A stretch of 35,494 nucleotides of DNA. Source: Deltaproteobacteria bacterium. GTDB taxonomy: Bacteria > Desulfobacterota > Binatia > Binatales > Binataceae. The notes beneath the pieces are model-generated. The model was given only the letters and a program-made list of their open reading frames with translations. It did no database searches and was not told where the DNA came from. The stretch's first letter is position 1. Each line of letters begins with the position of its first letter. Where the stretch lies: positions 1 to 35,494 of the forward strand of contig JAJZAI010000038.1 in the NCBI GenBank assembly GCA_021799495.1. Reading direction: 5' to 3'. Shown piece after piece: positions 15,974 to 28,602 of this stretch. A program made the translations under genes and the position numbers.

Positions 15974-17140
15974 CTAAAGCTTGGCGGGAGGATAATAGGG
16001 CCGATCGCCGAGCGCCTGCACGGCGGTCCAGAAATCGGGGCCTGAGGCCTTGCCGGCCTCCTCGATTTCCCAACTCTGCCGCGCGATCGCCCAACTATCT
16101 GGCCGCAGCCGGCGCGCCTCGCCAAGATATTGCAGCGCGTCCTCGCGATGCCCTTGCGCGAACAGGTACTGGCCCAGCCTGAATAGCGTATTGGCGCGGG
16201 CGTCCTGTTCGCTCAAACCCGCGACGCGGCCGCGCGCCTCATTATCGGGCAGAGCGTAAGCGCTTTTCCCGCCGTTGATCACCCAGTCGCGGATGGCGTC
16301 GAAATACGATGTCCGCGCCGCTTTGGCTTGCGCGGCGGCGTCGGGCGGAATCGAGAAATCGGCCAGATTCAGCTTGCGAAACGCGTCGCACGCGCCCGCC
16401 GATTCCGCCGGACGAACGATATGTCCCCGCTCGTCGATCCAGACCGCCATCGGCACGTTGACGATATTGTAAAGCTCGGCGACGACGTGCTTCTCGTCGA
16501 TGAGGCATGGATAGGTTGGCGCGCTGGCGGCGGCGCGCTCGCGTTCGCCCCATCCCATCAATTCGAGCATCGGCGGCGGCGGCGGCTCGGTCGCGCGAAT
16601 CCATTGGCGCACCGCATCCGCGCCGCATGAATCGAGCGCGATCGCGATGACCATGAAATTCCGGTCCTTCAGTTCCTGGTAGAGGCCCTGCCACACGGGC
16701 AGGTCAAAGCGGCATCCTCACCATGACGCCCAGGCCATCAGAATGCGTTTCATGCCGCGATAGCCGGCGAGCGAATGCATCCGGCCGTCCAGATCGGGCA
16801 GCGTGAAATCGGGCGCGTCGAGCGAACGGAGCGCCTGATTGCGCGCGGCGGGCGCTTCGCCGAACGCCCATACGCCGTGGCGATCGTCGTGCGCGATCGG
16901 ATTGCCGAGCAGGCGCGCGAACGCGGCCAGATTGAAGCGGCGGCCGCCGTCGCGCACGAACTCGGCGTCGCGTCCGGGCGGGATTGGCACGCATCGTTCG
17001 CCAAGGCAGGCGCCCTCTGACTTCAACTCCCATCCGGTCGCGGCGCGCAGGTCGCCAAGCCCGAGCCACAGATCGTCGCCCTCGCCACGCGCATCCGCCG
17101 CCGAATATTCGCCGCGCTCGTACAGTATCGTGACGCTCAT
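15974..17140 (-). CDS. Thioredoxin-fold selenoprotein candidate (in-frame TGA as Sec) with C-terminal TPR-like region
   Basis: 388 aa if TGA at 16720-16718 is read as selenocysteine (residue 141). ATG 17140 has GGAG 6 nt upstream. Both sides of the TGA are in one frame and make one redoxin domain: [21 protein letters not shown], then [25 protein letters not shown], then [17 protein letters not shown] and [32 protein letters not shown]. In TlpA/ResA/AhpC-type proteins WASW is followed directly by the catalytic Cys, which is exactly where the TGA falls, giving a U-G-C redox motif. A SECIS-like hairpin follows. The C-terminus ([29 protein letters not shown]) is TPR-like. No signal peptide is obvious. 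It is divergent from a YyaL gene. A plain nonsense mutation is the alternative. Confidence 0.85.
16687..16720 (-). promoter_or_regulatory. Bacterial SECIS-like element with its UGA
   Basis: In mRNA sense, UGA is followed by 14 nt, then a 6-bp stem CCUGCC/GGCAGG closing a 5-nt loop CGUGU. The loop starts 21 nt after the UGA, and G is its second base. That fits the known bacterial SECIS rules: a short loop with G in the first two positions, an upper stem of at least 4 bp, and loop distance of about 16-37 nt. SelB would bind here. Confidence 0.75.
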
Positions 17141-17345: not shown

Positions 17346-19430
17346 ATGAGCGATCACGCCAAATCCGCAAGTTCCGACCGCAAGCCCAACCGCCTGATCA
17401 ACGAACAAAGCCCGTACCTCCGCCAGCACGCATACAATCCCGTCGATTGGCATCCGTGGAGCGACGAGGCGCTCGCGCGGGCGCGCCGGGAGGACAAGCC
17501 GATCCTGCTCTCGATCGGATATTCCGCATGCCACTGGTGCCATGTGATGGAGCGCGAATCGTTCGAGAACGAGGCGATCGCGCGGCTGATGAACGAACGG
17601 TTCATCCCGATCAAGGTGGATCGCGAAGAACGGCCAGACCTCGACCAAATCTATATGGACGCCGTGCAGCTTCTCACCGGCCGCGGCGGATGGCCGCTTA
17701 CGATGTTCCTGACGCCGGACGGCAAGCCGTTTTACGGCGGCACCTATTTTCCGCCTGTCGACAGGCACGGCTTGCCCGCATTTCCGCGCGTGCTCGCCGC
17801 GATCGCGCAAGCGTGGAGCGAGAAGCGCGATGACGTGAACCAGAACGTCGCGCGGATCGCGGCGGCGATGAACGCGCTTGGCGGCGAGAATCTGGCCGGT
17901 GGCGAACCTGCAGCCGATTTGCCCTTGCGCGGCGCGCATGAGCTGGCGCGCCACTACGACAGCGCCCACGGCGGGATTGGCGGCGCGCCCAAATTTCCCA
18001 ACACATTCATCTTTTCGCTGTTCCTGCGGATGTACGACGCCGACGGCGATCCGAGCTTCGCCGACATGACGCGCGACACTTTGACGCGGATGGCGAAAGG
18101 CGGGATTTACGACCAGCTCGGCGGCGGGTTCCATCGCTACAGCGTCGATGAGCGCTGGCTGACGCCGCATTTCGAAAAAATGCTGTACGACAACGCGCTG
18201 CTCGCGCGGCTCTATCTTGACGCGGGGCGCGCCCTAAACGAGCCCGATTTGATTCGCGTCGCGCGCGAGATCCTCGACTACGTGATGCGCGAGATGACCA
18301 GCCCGGAAGGCGGATTCTATTCGTCGCAGGACGCCGACAGCGAAGGCGAGGAAGGCAAATTTTTCATCTGGACGCCTGACGAATTCCGTTCCGCGCTCGG
18401 CGGCGAGCTGGCGGCGATCGCGCAGCGATGGTTCGACGTGAGCGAGGAGGGGAATTTCGAAGGCCGCAATATCCTGCATCGCACCATCCCGATCGCCGAC
18501 GCCGCGCGCCTGTTCGGCAAATCCGCAGACGCGGCCGCGGCCGCGATCGCCGAAATACGCGCCCGCCTGTTCGCCGCCCGCGAGTCGAGGGTTCGTCCGG
18601 GCCGCGACGACAAAATTCTCGCGGCGTGGAACGGCATGATGATCGGGGCCTTCGCGGAAGGCTATCGCGCGACCGGCGAAGCGCGTTATCTGCAAGCCGC
18701 ACTGCAAGCGATCGACTTCGTGATGAAGCGTATGTGGGACGGACGGCGCCTGAAGCGGTCTTACAAAGACGGCGTCGCGCGCTTCAACGCATATCTCGAA
18801 GATTACGCGCTGATGGCCGGCGCGCTGATCGACGTTTACGAGGCGACCCTGGACCGCCGCCATATCGAAGCGGCGCGCACGCTTGCGAACACGATCGTCG
18901 AGCATTTTTCCGACCCCGAGCAGGGGGGATTCTTTTTTACGTCGGACGATCACGAGGAGTTGATCGCGCGGACCAGGCCGGCCTTCGATGGCTCGACTCC
19001 GTCGGGCAACAGCGCGGCGGCGATGGCGCTGCTGCGGCTGGATTCTTATCTGGACGATTCGCGTTACGCCGAAGCGGCCGCGCGCGCCCTGCGATCGTTC
19101 GCGGGCGCGATGGAAAAGCAGCCGTTCGCTTTCGCGCATATGCTCGAGGCGCTGGATCGATATCATCGCGGCGCGACCGAGGTTGTGTTGGCCGGCGACC
19201 CGGCATGCGCGGAATTCGCGGAATGGCGCGACCGTCTGGGCCTGCTGTACGCGCCGAACCTCGCCTTACACGCGGCTGGCGCGAATCCAGACGGCGAAAA
19301 CTTTCTGCCCGAAGCGGCGCGCGGCAAGCGCGCGATCGACGGCCGGATCACCGCGTACGTATGCCGGAATCGAACCTGCTCGGCGCCCATAACTTCATTC
19401 GAAGAATTCGTCCGCGCCATCGCGGGATAA
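17346..19430 (+). CDS. DUF255/YyaL-family thioredoxin-domain protein
   Basis: 694 aa from ATG 17346; the frame is open further upstream across the divergent promoter region, but the family N-terminus ([24 protein letters not shown]) sits just after this ATG. The thioredoxin-like domain has [13 protein letters not shown] with a CxxC and [15 protein letters not shown]. The remainder is a six-hairpin glycosidase-like all-alpha domain ([48 protein letters not shown]). The C-terminus has [16 protein letters not shown], a typical ending. Homologues include mammalian SPATA20. The biochemical role is not settled: a redox-linked sugar epimerase/glycosidase has been suggested. It shares a 205-nt divergent intergenic region with the selenoprotein gene. 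Confidence 0.96.
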
Positions 19431-24392: not shown

Positions 24393-24778
24393 ACTATTCA
24401 TGCGCAGGCCGGGGCTGACCGGTTAAATTTGCGCCGCGGTACTCTATCGCGCCTTGCGGCGGCCCGCGCGGCGATCGATTTCGACTTTTCGCGCCACAGC
24501 GCGCGATGGATTGAGAATCCATCCCTTGCGCATCCAGACGGCTCCAGCCTGCGGCTGAAGCCTGATTGTCCATAGGCGCCCGCTAAGTAAGCTCTGCAAA
24601 AGGTCCATCCCGTCATTCTGAGCGGAGCGAAGAATCCCGGGATTCTTCACTCCGCACGCTCCGTTCAGAATGACAACCTGGCTTGTGCGGAGCTTCCCTA
24701 AGTGTTTCCCAATCATTCACGCATCTGAAATGCTGGTTTACGACCAAGCCTTTTTCCGGATGTCGAACGCGGCCGCGG
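24393..24778. other. Gene-free stretch holding two hairpin repeats
   Basis: No supported gene. It contains a 10-bp near-perfect hairpin at 24540-24562 (GGCTCCAGCC / GGCTGAAGCC) and repeat copy 2 at 24586-24703. Open frames here run into the repeats and do not resemble proteins. Confidence 0.6.
24586..24703. repeat. Dispersed large-hairpin repeat, copy 2
   Basis: The outer arms are AAGCTCTGCA (24589-24598) against TGTGCGGAGCTT (24684-24695). The inner arms are GTCATTCTGA (24612-24621) and TCAGAATGAC (24665-24674), a perfect match. The palindrome GAATCCCGGGATTC is at 24632-24645. It is the most symmetric copy in the window and closely matches copy 1. Confidence 0.88.
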
Positions 24779-25693
24779 ATGATAACTGAAAACCGCAAGG
24801 CGTCGAAAAAGCGCGCCGTCTCAACCAGCGTATGCGCTTTTGCCGATAGTTTTACTTTCGCGCGGCGGCTGGCGGCCGAATTGGGCGCGACGCCGCGCCT
24901 CTTGAAACAGCATCGGTTTCCGGATGGCGAAGCGCTAGTGCGCGCCGAACCTCATCCGGAGCGGTACGCCCTCGTGGTGCGGGCGCTCGATCATCCCGAT
25001 CCCAAGCTGTTTGAAACGATGCTCGCCGCGGACGCGCTACGTCGCGGCGGCGCGCGGCGGGTCACGTTGGTCGCGCCATATTTGCCGTATATGCGACAGG
25101 ATGCGGTTTTCGAGCCGGGCGAACCCGTGTCGCAACGGGTGCTGGGCGCGATGCTTGCCCTGGTCTTCGACCAGGTCGTCACGGTCGAAGCGCACTTGCA
25201 CCGGGTGCGAACGCTTCGCGAAGCGATACCGTGCCGCGCGCTATCGCTGAGCGCGGCGCCCGTTCTGGCGCAGTGGATGAAATCGCGAGCGCCCGATGCG
25301 CTGGTGGTAGGCCCGGACCATGAATCGACGCCGTGGGTCCGGAAAATCGGACGCGCCGCCGGACTGAAATGGATCGCCGGTCGCAAGGAACGCATCGGGG
25401 ATCGCTCGGTCCGCGTCCACTTTGACGATGTTCCCTCTGTGCGGCGCGCCTTCGTTATCGACGATATCGCCAGCTCCGGCGCAACGCTCGCCGCCGCCGC
25501 GCGCGCGTTGCGTCAGCGGGGCGTCAAAGAGGTTGACGCGATTGTGGTTCATGCGTTGTTCGCGCCCGGCGCGATGACGCTGATCCGCCGGGCCGGCGTC
25601 CGGCGCGTGCTCTCGTGCGACACGATCGCGAACCGGACTAACGCAATCGGATGCGCGCCGCTGGTCGCACGCGCGCTCGAAGACATCGCATGA
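24779..25693 (+). CDS. Divergent ribose-phosphate pyrophosphokinase-like protein
   Basis: 304 aa from ATG 24779; an earlier frame-open start at 24683 lies inside a repeat and is rejected. PRPP synthetase landmarks are present: RFPDGEALVRAEP, the LVAPYLPYMRQD stretch (family VxPYFxYARQD) and the PRPP-binding loop FVIDDIASSGATLAAAA. The DLHxxQ motif is altered to VEAHLHRV, and the flexible-loop region is changed. Canonical enzymes pyrophosphorylate ribose-5-phosphate using ATP. The stop overlaps the start of a beta-CASP gene, and an AMP phosphorylase follows, so the operon links phosphorylated ribose with nucleotide salvage. Whether this enzyme makes PRPP from ribose-5-phosphate or uses another pentose phosphate is open. 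Confidence 0.88.
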   Translation: MITENRKASKKRAVSTSVCAFADSFTFARRLAAELGATPRLLKQHRFPDGEALVRAEPHPERYALVVRALDHPDPKLFETMLAADALRRGGARRVTLVAPYLPYMRQDAVFEPGEPVSQRVLGAMLALVFDQVVTVEAHLHRVRTLREAIPCRALSLSAAPVLAQWMKSRAPDALVVGPDHESTPWVRKIGRAAGLKWIAGRKERIGDRSVRVHFDDVPSVRRAFVIDDIASSGATLAAAARALRQRGVKEVDAIVVHALFAPGAMTLIRRAGVRRVLSCDTIANRTNAIGCAPLVARALEDIA

Positions 25694-27084
25694 AAAATTC
25701 CGCTCCCACGTTACGCTTCATGGGCGCCGCCGGGGTCGTAACCGGCAGCCGCTTCCTACTGACCGTGAACGGCGCGCGCACGCTTATCGATTGCGGCCTT
25801 TTTCAGGGACTGAAGGAACTGCGTCTGCGCAACTGGGACGCCTTCCCGATCGCGCCGGCGGCGATCGATCGCGTGATGCTGACGCATGCGCATCTCGACC
25901 ACAGCGGCTATCTGCCGGCGCTCTGCCGAGACGGATATCGCGGCAAAATCGCGGCCACCGGCGGAACACATGCGCTGTGCCGCATCCTGTTGCCCGACAG
26001 CGGACGTCTTCAGGAAGAAGAAGCCGGATATGCGAATCGCAAAGGCTACTCGAAGCACGCGCCGGCGCGGGCGCTCTATACCGAGGACGACGCGCTGAAG
26101 GCGCTGGAACAATTTGAACCGGTCGCGCATGGCTCGCCGATCGACGCGCCCGGCGGATTGCGCGTCAGTTTCAGATACGCCGGCCACATCCTCGGGTCCG
26201 CGTCGTTGCTGGTCGAATGCGATGGACCGAAACGGCGGCGCGTGCTCTTCAGCGGCGATCTCGGCCGGCCCTTTCATCCAATCCTGATTCCGCCGGCTCC
26301 GGCGCCTGAAGCCGACGTCATAGTGGTTGAATCGACTTACGGCGACCGCCGGCATGACGACGCGGCGTCGGTGAAACTTTTCGGCGAGACGATCGCGCGC
26401 GTCGCCGGGCGCGGAGGAGTCATCGTGATTCCCTCCTTCGCCGTGGATCGCACCGAAGTCATTTTATTTCATCTGCGCAAACTGATTCGCGAAGGAAGCG
26501 TTCCGTCGATTCCGGTTTACGTGGACAGCCCGATGGCGCTGGCGACTCTGAAAGTCTACCAGCGGGAGATCGCGTCCGCATGTCCCGAAATCCGCAACGG
26601 CGTAACGCCCGAGGATCTCGATCCCGGCAATCTCCACGAGATTCGCGGCGTGGACGAATCGATCGCGCTGAATTTCGAACAGGGGCCGATGATCATCATC
26701 TCGGCGTCGGGGATGGCGACCGGCGGGCGGGTATTGCACCATCTGGCGGCGCGCTTGGGCGATGAACGCAACGCGGTCATCCTCGTCGGCTATCAGGCGG
26801 AGGGCACGCGCGGCAGAAAACTGCTCGACGGCGAAGCGGCTATCAAGTTGCTCGGCCGGTATGTCGGCGTCCGCGCGCAAATCGTGAACGTGCCCGGGTT
26901 TTCGGTGCATTCCGATCAGGCCGAGACGCTGGCGTGGCTCGGGACGGCGCCGCGCGCTCCCGAAGTCTGTTACGTGGTGCATGGCGATCCGTCGGCCGCC
27001 GAAGCGCTGCGCAGCGCGATCGCGCGGGAGCTGCGATGGACCGCGGTCGTGCCGCGCCATCTCGAGCAAGTCCGAATCGATTGA
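25690..27084 (+). CDS. Beta-CASP metallo-beta-lactamase-fold protein (RNase/CPSF-type)
   Basis: 464 aa from ATG 25690, overlapping the previous stop by ATGA. The zinc-binding motif is THAHLDHSG (His66, His68, Asp70, His71), with YAGHILGSAS and LFSGDLGRP further on. The beta-CASP part has VIVESTYGDRRH, PSFAVDRTEVILFHL, ISASGMATGGRVLHHL and, at the end, VPGFSVHSDQAETLAWL, which are motifs A-C of the CPSF73-like RNA-processing nucleases. Bacterial proteins of this type are thought to be endo- or exoribonucleases. Placed between a PRPP-synthetase-like gene and a nucleoside-monophosphate phosphorylase, it may supply nucleotides from RNA to the salvage step (inference). Confidence 0.95.
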   Translation: MKNSAPTLRFMGAAGVVTGSRFLLTVNGARTLIDCGLFQGLKELRLRNWDAFPIAPAAIDRVMLTHAHLDHSGYLPALCRDGYRGKIAATGGTHALCRILLPDSGRLQEEEAGYANRKGYSKHAPARALYTEDDALKALEQFEPVAHGSPIDAPGGLRVSFRYAGHILGSASLLVECDGPKRRRVLFSGDLGRPFHPILIPPAPAPEADVIVVESTYGDRRHDDAASVKLFGETIARVAGRGGVIVIPSFAVDRTEVILFHLRKLIREGSVPSIPVYVDSPMALATLKVYQREIASACPEIRNGVTPEDLDPGNLHEIRGVDESIALNFEQGPMIIISASGMATGGRVLHHLAARLGDERNAVILVGYQAEGTRGRKLLDGEAAIKLLGRYVGVRAQIVNVPGFSVHSDQAETLAWLGTAPRAPEVCYVVHGDPSAAEALRSAIARELRWTAVVPRHLEQVRID

Positions 27085-27096
27085 CGAGGAGCCGCG

Positions 27097-28602
27097 ATGT
27101 TCCACGTAAAGCATTTTCCGCTCGACACGCTGCGCGAACACGTTATCGTGATTCATCAGCGCGCGGTTCGAGAGGGCAAGCTCGGATTCAACCCGCTCGA
27201 CCGCGCCTATGTCTTTGGCGACGATCCGGCCACCGGCGCGCGGCGCGAAGTCACGGGCGTGCTGAATTTTTGTAACGACACGTTGCTGGAACCGGACGAA
27301 ATCGGCCTTTCTGAAGAGGCGTTTCGCGATCTGGGATTGCCGGAGGGCGCGCAGGTGAACGCGACCCTGGCGGTCCCGCCGCGCAGCGTCGATCTGGTCC
27401 GCGGCAAGCTTGAAGGCCGCAAATTCGATCGCGCGGCGTTCCAGTCGATCCTGGCCGACGTCGTGCGTCGCCGTTACTCGCGCGTCGAGTTGTCGATGTT
27501 CGTGCTGGCCTGCGCACTGCGCGGTCTCGACAACACCGAGATCGCCGACTACACGCGCGCGATGATCGATACCGGTTCGCGCCTCGATTTCGGACCCGGA
27601 CCGATCGCCGACAAGCATTGTATCGGCGGAATTCCGGGCAATCGTACGACCATGATCGTCGTGCCGATCGTGGCCTCGCTCGGGATGAAAATGCCCAAGA
27701 CTTCATCGCGCGCGATCACCAGCCCGGCCGGCACCGCCGACACCATGGGCGTGCTCGCTGACGTCGGCCTGAGCGCGCAGCGCCTGTACGACGTCGTCAA
27801 GGAGGCGGGCGGATGTATCGCGTGGGGCGGCGCGCTTGAGCTTGCCCCGGCCGACGACATCCTGATTACGGTCGAGCGGCCGATGGAAGTCGATACCGAG
27901 GCGCAGATGGTCGCGTCGATCCTCGCCAAAAAGAAAACGGTCGGAGCCACCCACGTACTGATCGATATCCCTGTCGGCGCCAGCGCGAAGGTTCGCACCC
28001 TCGCCCGCGCCGAGCGCCTGTCCGCGCTCTTTCACAGCGTCGCGCGCGAAATCGACCTGCGCCTCGAAGTCGTCACCACCGAAGCGCGCGGTCCCGTTGG
28101 CCGCGGAATCGGTCCGCGGCTGGAGGCGCTGGACGTATTCGCCGTGCTTCGGGGCGCGCCCGACGCGCCCGCCGATCTGCGCGAGAAGTCGCTCTATCTC
28201 GCCGCTCGCCTGCTTGAGATGACCGGCGTGGCGCCTGCGGCCGGCGGGTATCGGGCAGCGCAGCACGCCCTCGATTCAGGGACAGCGTTGAAAATGTTTG
28301 AACGGATCATTGACGCGCAGGGACGCCGGGAATTTCCCGCCCAAGCGGCCTTCACTACGATCTTTCCGTCATACCAGGACGGCAGAATTCGCGAGATCGA
28401 TTGCTGGGAAATCGCGCGCGTCGCGAAACTGGCCGGCGCACCCGCCAATATAGCCGCCGGAGTGCGGATGCTGAAGGCGGTCGGTGAGGTCGCGGCTCGC
28501 GGCGAACCAATCTTTGAAATCCATGCCGAAAGCGCGGCGCAACTCGAATTCGCCCGCGCCTACGCCGAGTCGCATCCCCAAATCGTCCGCTACGGCTTCT
28601 AG
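27097..28602 (+). CDS. AMP/thymidine phosphorylase family protein (long form)
   Basis: 501 aa from ATG 27097, with GAGGAG 6 nt upstream and a 12-nt gap after the beta-CASP gene. It has the extra roughly 90-residue N-terminal domain typical of archaeal-type AMP phosphorylases, then the pyrimidine phosphorylase fold. DKHCIGGIPGNRTTMIVVPIVA replaces the thymidine phosphorylase KHSTGGVGDK loop, as in AMP phosphorylases. SSRAITSPAGTADTMGVLADV is the family signature. The C-terminal domain carries VGRGIGPRLEALDV. AMP phosphorylases convert NMPs and phosphate to base and ribose-1,5-bisphosphate. No RuBisCO or R15P isomerase is in the window, so the fate of the sugar is not evident, though the operon's PRPP-synthetase-like gene is suggestive. 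Confidence 0.94.
   Translation: MFHVKHFPLDTLREHVIVIHQRAVREGKLGFNPLDRAYVFGDDPATGARREVTGVLNFCNDTLLEPDEIGLSEEAFRDLGLPEGAQVNATLAVPPRSVDLVRGKLEGRKFDRAAFQSILADVVRRRYSRVELSMFVLACALRGLDNTEIADYTRAMIDTGSRLDFGPGPIADKHCIGGIPGNRTTMIVVPIVASLGMKMPKTSSRAITSPAGTADTMGVLADVGLSAQRLYDVVKEAGGCIAWGGALELAPADDILITVERPMEVDTEAQMVASILAKKKTVGATHVLIDIPVGASAKVRTLARAERLSALFHSVAREIDLRLEVVTTEARGPVGRGIGPRLEALDVFAVLRGAPDAPADLREKSLYLAARLLEMTGVAPAAGGYRAAQHALDSGTALKMFERIIDAQGRREFPAQAAFTTIFPSYQDGRIREIDCWEIARVAKLAGAPANIAAGVRMLKAVGEVAARGEPIFEIHAESAAQLEFARAYAESHPQIVRYGF

Follow-up and report, generated by a model that had tools for sequence, protein, structure and literature searches.

A very probable selenoprotein gene of the UGC-containing, ResA-like family NF041054 in a Binataceae-related bacterium

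The 35,494-nucleotide stretch of DNA analysed here, referred to as the window throughout, carries on its minus strand (15974..17140) a gene that, judging from its sequence, is almost certainly functional and codes for a selenoprotein belonging to the known NF041054 / 'UGC-containing Prx-like (TlpA-like)' family, and its UGA codon 141 very probably places selenocysteine (Sec) in the active site of an enzyme resembling thioredoxin. Running from ATG to TAG, the frame 17140-15974 comprises 389 codons, i.e. 388 residues with Sec at 141 plus the TAG, and its sole internal stop is the TGA of codon 141 (16718..16720, minus strand) in the context WASW(U)GCRFDLP, at the nucleophile position of a redoxin fold and within a U-G-C motif. 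The initial annotation had described a 389-codon frame broken by TGA alone at 16720-16718, and both coordinates and context proved exact. A GGAG lies within 30 bases 5' of the ATG, at a spacing that by eye is normal for ribosome binding.

With the TGA read as Sec, the protein scores 305.9 bits with NCBIfam NF041054, "ResA-like WAxxUGC motif-containing protein" (WAxxUGC_long, equivalog), which is 5.9 bits above the cut-off of 300, and the WAxxUGC motif required by this model is present as WASWUGC with its in-frame TGA; the genome search for NF041054 gave 300 bits for the gene with its in-frame neighbours. All 37 aligned rows including the window match the model at E <= 0.001, the window branch being barely over the cut-off with a match that an insertion near residues 187-210 breaks into two stretches; the insertion is common to the window protein and loci L024-L032. 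The gene had been put forward as a new selenoprotein candidate, and here the initial annotation has to be revised: a new selenoprotein family is ruled out by the match to NF041054, a curated model of the family, and by UGC-containing Prx-like/TlpA selenoproteins published since 2008 (PMC2398784, PMC9312934, PMC13188914). Since the family is already catalogued, the gene counts as a further, well-supported case instead of a new type of selenoprotein; it comes from a bacterium that, by its nearest named records outside its own group, appears related to the Binataceae. In its accessible part, PMC2398784 (2008) counts 46 selenoprotein sequences under "Prx-like (UGC-containing)" (pfam00578, motif UGC) and, as its last column appears to read with the heading out of view, 855 Cys homologues. 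The available portions of two reviews hold the entries "UGC-containing Prx-like protein" (PMC9312934, 2022) and "UGC-containing TlpA disulfide reductase family protein" (PMC13188914, 2026), the former also stating that a clear function is absent for most predicted selenoproteins; none of the excerpts assigns this family a function. As far as these excerpts go, the UGC proteins of GOS 2008, PMC9312934 and PMC13188914 are, like the window protein, AhpC/TSA-type or TlpA-type redoxins with a UGC motif; identity with them rests on motif and domain, as the published sequences themselves were not aligned to the window gene. The string UGC was not found in the accessible main text of PMC5029168, PMC12013277 contained none of the terms looked for, and a literature search returned no paper with the name "WAxxUGC" and none on selenoproteins in Binatia or Binatota.

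Conservation of the TGA codon was read in homologues found by scanning the genome_contigs database with six patterns, one of which had Cys in this position and would thus be biased towards Cys forms. TGA occupies the aligned codon in 80/80 of the loci kept (the best 80 of 82 relatives, with the window's own copies L017/L018 outside the 80), whose record titles name Binataceae, Deltaproteobacteria, Acidimicrobiia and other Actinomycetota, Chloroflexi, Acidobacteria and others. A further 29 loci with the codon read, which may share species with the set of 80, comprise 21 with TGA, one with TGC (family member L125) and seven CxxC ResA-like proteins outside the family; hence, counting family members only, this second set has TGA in 21 of 22 loci and TGC in the remaining one. 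Homologues were thus found to carry TGA or, in this one relative, Cys at the site, as the initial annotation had proposed to examine, and the refuting case that it had named, homologues with neither, was not observed. In the tree, the Cys form L125 is joined to the TGA member L121 at 100/91 support with TGA rows all around, so Cys looks derived, albeit on a long branch of unusual composition in a tree without outgroup, at a point where a meeting of long branches was flagged by the program. The L125 genome (100% complete) yielded no selB above the cut-off, the best tRNA-Sec model match there is a tRNA-Ser, and loop bases 1 and 4 of the hairpin described below are C and C, so that the loop pair is lost. 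Three records, L069, L103 and L097, are titled Bifidobacterium breve or Ferrithrix thermotolerans, and their copies are near-identical to other Acidimicrobiia-group rows of the tree; these record names may be wrong.

Downstream of the TGA, a bacterial SECIS-type hairpin of 6 bp (16687..16703, minus strand) is formed by the stem CCTGCC/GGCAGG, in which 16703-16698 pairs with 16692-16687 around the 5-nt loop CGTGT (16697-16693). The 6-bp stem and 5-nt loop had been described correctly, while the start had been misplaced: the 21st base after the TGA opens the loop, and the stem opens at the 15th. Alone, the window hairpin folds at -9.3 kcal/mol, and it is present in the minimum-energy fold when folding begins at base 13 (T of TGA = 1); in the 54-base fold including the TGA, another structure wins over it for the window. 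For comparison across the family, 109 loci were reduced first by 8 (the seven CxxC ResA-like proteins plus L125 as the Cys form) and next by 19 duplicate stretches, which left the window and 82 rows. Standard pairs fill 99.1% of the 574 cells of the 7-pair hairpin in the 82 distinct rows (shuffle mean 92.3%), and pairing falls to 32.6-72% once the partner is shifted by one to three columns. None of 500 shuffles reaches the observed value on any of five measures, a count not to be taken as a probability because the rows are related, many of them from Acidimicrobiia, and related rows can beat shuffles without structure. The pair between loop bases 1 and 4 is C-G in 64 rows, G-C in 12, A-U in 5 and other in 1; as these two are third bases of Pro and Val/Gly codons, their covariation is not explained by protein conservation. 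Similarly, pair 19-33 changes from C-G to U-A in four rows via synonymous Leu and Gln codons. Bacterial SECIS hairpins lie 3' of the UGA at a loop distance of 16-37 nt, and their first or second loop base is a G. Here, the loop begins at base 21 after the TGA and loop base 2 is an invariant G. The loop pattern N-G-K-N'-U looks similar to GGUCU, the loop in the fdhF SECIS from E. coli. No paper with the string GGUCU was found in the literature search; conserved loop guanosines are mentioned in the accessible part of PMC2398784.

Selection on either side of the TGA was compared in four ungapped close pairs, giving dN/dS values of 0.185, 0.211, 0.117 and 0.208 on the 5' side and of 0.079, 0.086, 0.071 and 0.087 on the 3' side. 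With 0.07-0.09 after the TGA, the downstream part is coding and under strong constraint. These values bear on the notion that the TGA is a nonsense mutation, a pseudogene mark or a sequencing error in a Cys gene. TGA is only one base from TGC or TGT, a Cys form does exist in L125, and TGA is an ordinary stop in the window, ending 8 of the 11 other ORFs examined; against this stand the TGA in all 80 genome_contigs loci, the purifying selection downstream and the covarying hairpin, which together make an accidental stop exceedingly improbable. The same pairing statistics and the uniform TGA bear out the earlier argument that hairpin and codon together exceed chance. The UGA might also act mainly as a selenium-dependent stop, leaving a short 140-residue product, the N-terminal domain alone, with its own role when selenium is scarce. 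That domain (residues 1-95; 16856..17140, minus strand) is beta-rich, contains the invariant C45 and C50 and is predicted to fold alone with high confidence (pLDDT 94.6). Selection is nevertheless stronger downstream than upstream of the TGA (0.12-0.21), so that the full-length product is what is kept, and we regard a predominant stop function as highly unlikely.

Selenocysteine insertion as the preferred reading is further supported by the machinery of the window's own genome (98.19% complete, 89 contigs). All four components named for a check in the initial annotation are present, contrary to the absence that would have refuted its reading: the tRNA-Sec gene (selC) on contig C81 (72.2 bits; tRNA-SeC with anticodon tca by ARAGORN), selB on C62 (360 bits), selA on C37 (567 bits) and selD on C62 (C62:169962-170888; L022; 381.5 bits). 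The selD gene has its own in-frame TGA in AAG(U)AGK, at the presumed catalytic position, which probably brings the selenoprotein genes of this genome to two or more. The two other tRNA-Sec model matches over the cut-off are a tRNA-Ser and a tRNA-Leu by ARAGORN and were not counted as tRNA-Sec, and a second weak family match in the genome (C43:748-1071; one TGA, 23 bits) revealed no redoxin motif on reading. The frame open past the TGA would also be expected if UGA were recoded otherwise, be it as Trp genome-wide or by general read-through; yet the abundance of TGA-terminated ORFs in the window noted above, the complete Sec machinery and the sole type of substitution observed in the family, to Cys rather than Trp, render such recoding hardly credible.

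Across 96 genomes searched, the window's own included, with a TGA copy counted above 100 bits, selB is found in 37 of the 41 genomes with such a copy vs 40 of the 55 others (Fisher p 0.04), an association which is only weak; 26 of the 96 exceed the NF041054 cut-off. In four of the 41, no selB exceeds the cut-off: G011 (53% complete; selA present, and at a contig end a short match to the selB tail), G040 (85% complete; selA present), G086 (80% complete; selA matched in part, at 114.5 bits) and G073. The selA genes or partial match in the first three suggest that these may be incomplete assemblies; in G073 (L116; 99% complete), neither a selA match nor selB over the cut-off was found. Five genomes (G025, G027, G040, G059, G066) hold two family matches each, with one TGA in each match and both over 200 bits. 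In a phylum-wide sample, 166 of 198 genomes match the family model at E <= 0.001, and the one over the cut-off is the window's own; 11 of 14 control genomes match, none over the cut-off. Within the same phylum, G113, G129, G150, G231 and G240 show ResA-like matches of about 52-63 bits with one TGA inside, which could be other Sec redoxins. On plasmids, 23 records match, none over 80% of the query, and among the ten matches listed the annotation reads ResA, TlpA-family or redoxin-domain protein for eight and is lacking for two.

The encoded protein was modelled and compared using alignments of 37 rows (the window, 30 of the 80 genome_contigs loci and six others) and 25 rows. With Sec as Cys and the 37-row alignment, the AlphaFold model of the full protein reaches a mean pLDDT of 94.0. 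Its ResA/TlpA-like thioredoxin-fold domain (about residues 103-290; 16271..16834, minus strand), with Pfam AhpC-TSA at residues 108-242, matches DsbE/ResA/TlpA structures (3gl3, Z 14.5; ResA 1st9, Z 13.8, 2.3 A over 136 residues), and ResA is also the best Foldseek match (E 3.6e-9). Since peroxiredoxins follow at Z about 12, the fold is compatible with a peroxidase role as well. Sec is aligned to the first Cys of the CxxC in ResA-like proteins, in agreement with the original placement of the TGA at the redox Cys of a TlpA/ResA-like redoxin with a U-G-C motif. While ResA, TlpA and DsbE share the thioredoxin fold with the window protein, they have CxxC where the latter has U-G-C; moreover, the window protein has an extra N-terminal domain and a C-terminal TPR-like region, and no hydrophobic signal segment for export was seen by eye at its N-terminus. 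A ResA or TlpA proper was rejected, as the NCBIfam models are far under their cut-offs (51.3 vs 170 and 42.4 vs 230 bits, respectively). The TPR-like repeat has its best stretch at residues 316-348 (16097..16195, minus strand), where its 24.9 bits narrowly miss the Pfam threshold of 27. For the N-terminal domain, Foldseek gave nothing significant against the PDB (best E 0.3), a missing match that does not equal a new fold; the domain may resemble the N-terminal domain of copper amine oxidase. Of 101 TGA homologues, 100 combine C45, C50 and C143 with the TGA, and the exception is a match beginning after the N-terminal domain.

By analogy with established bacterial biology, SelB would bind the hairpin and deliver Sec-tRNA, whereby UGA 141 would be read as Sec. 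The predicted product is a cytoplasmic thiol/selenol oxidoreductase, in which Sec141 would attack a disulfide or peroxide and Cys143 would resolve it to a selenenylsulfide. The invariant C45/C50 pair may pass electrons to or from the Sec141 centre and is a putative second redox site, either relay or resolving pair. Combined, these elements hint at a two-centre selenoenzyme with a cytoplasmic ResA-fold U-G-C centre and C45/C50 of the N-terminal domain as internal electron relay; we offer this tentatively and consider it rather doubtful, but if true it would give selenium-based disulfide chemistry a new domain architecture. The function of the family could be approached concretely through the loop pair with its covariation, through C45 and C50, which are invariant, and through L125, where Cys naturally stands in for Sec and the genome shows no selB over the cut-off.

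Regarding the gene neighbourhood, no conserved operon link of the selenoprotein gene was found in loci L001-L103, many of which have short flanks. A YyaL/DUF255 (Thioredox_DsbH) gene at 17346-19430 (+) is divergent from the selenoprotein gene; in these loci (E <= 1e-8) and apart from the window's own copies L017/L018, it lies beside the family gene only in L024-L027. Ten other window ORFs have matches almost only in L024-L027 as well, and some of the minus-strand ORFs among them are probably shadows of plus-strand genes. Farther along the window, a packed cluster at 24683-28602 (+) comprises PRPP-synthetase-like, beta-CASP/RMMBL metallohydrolase and pyrimidine-nucleoside/AMP-phosphorylase-like genes, and looks like an archaeal-type nucleotide salvage set.
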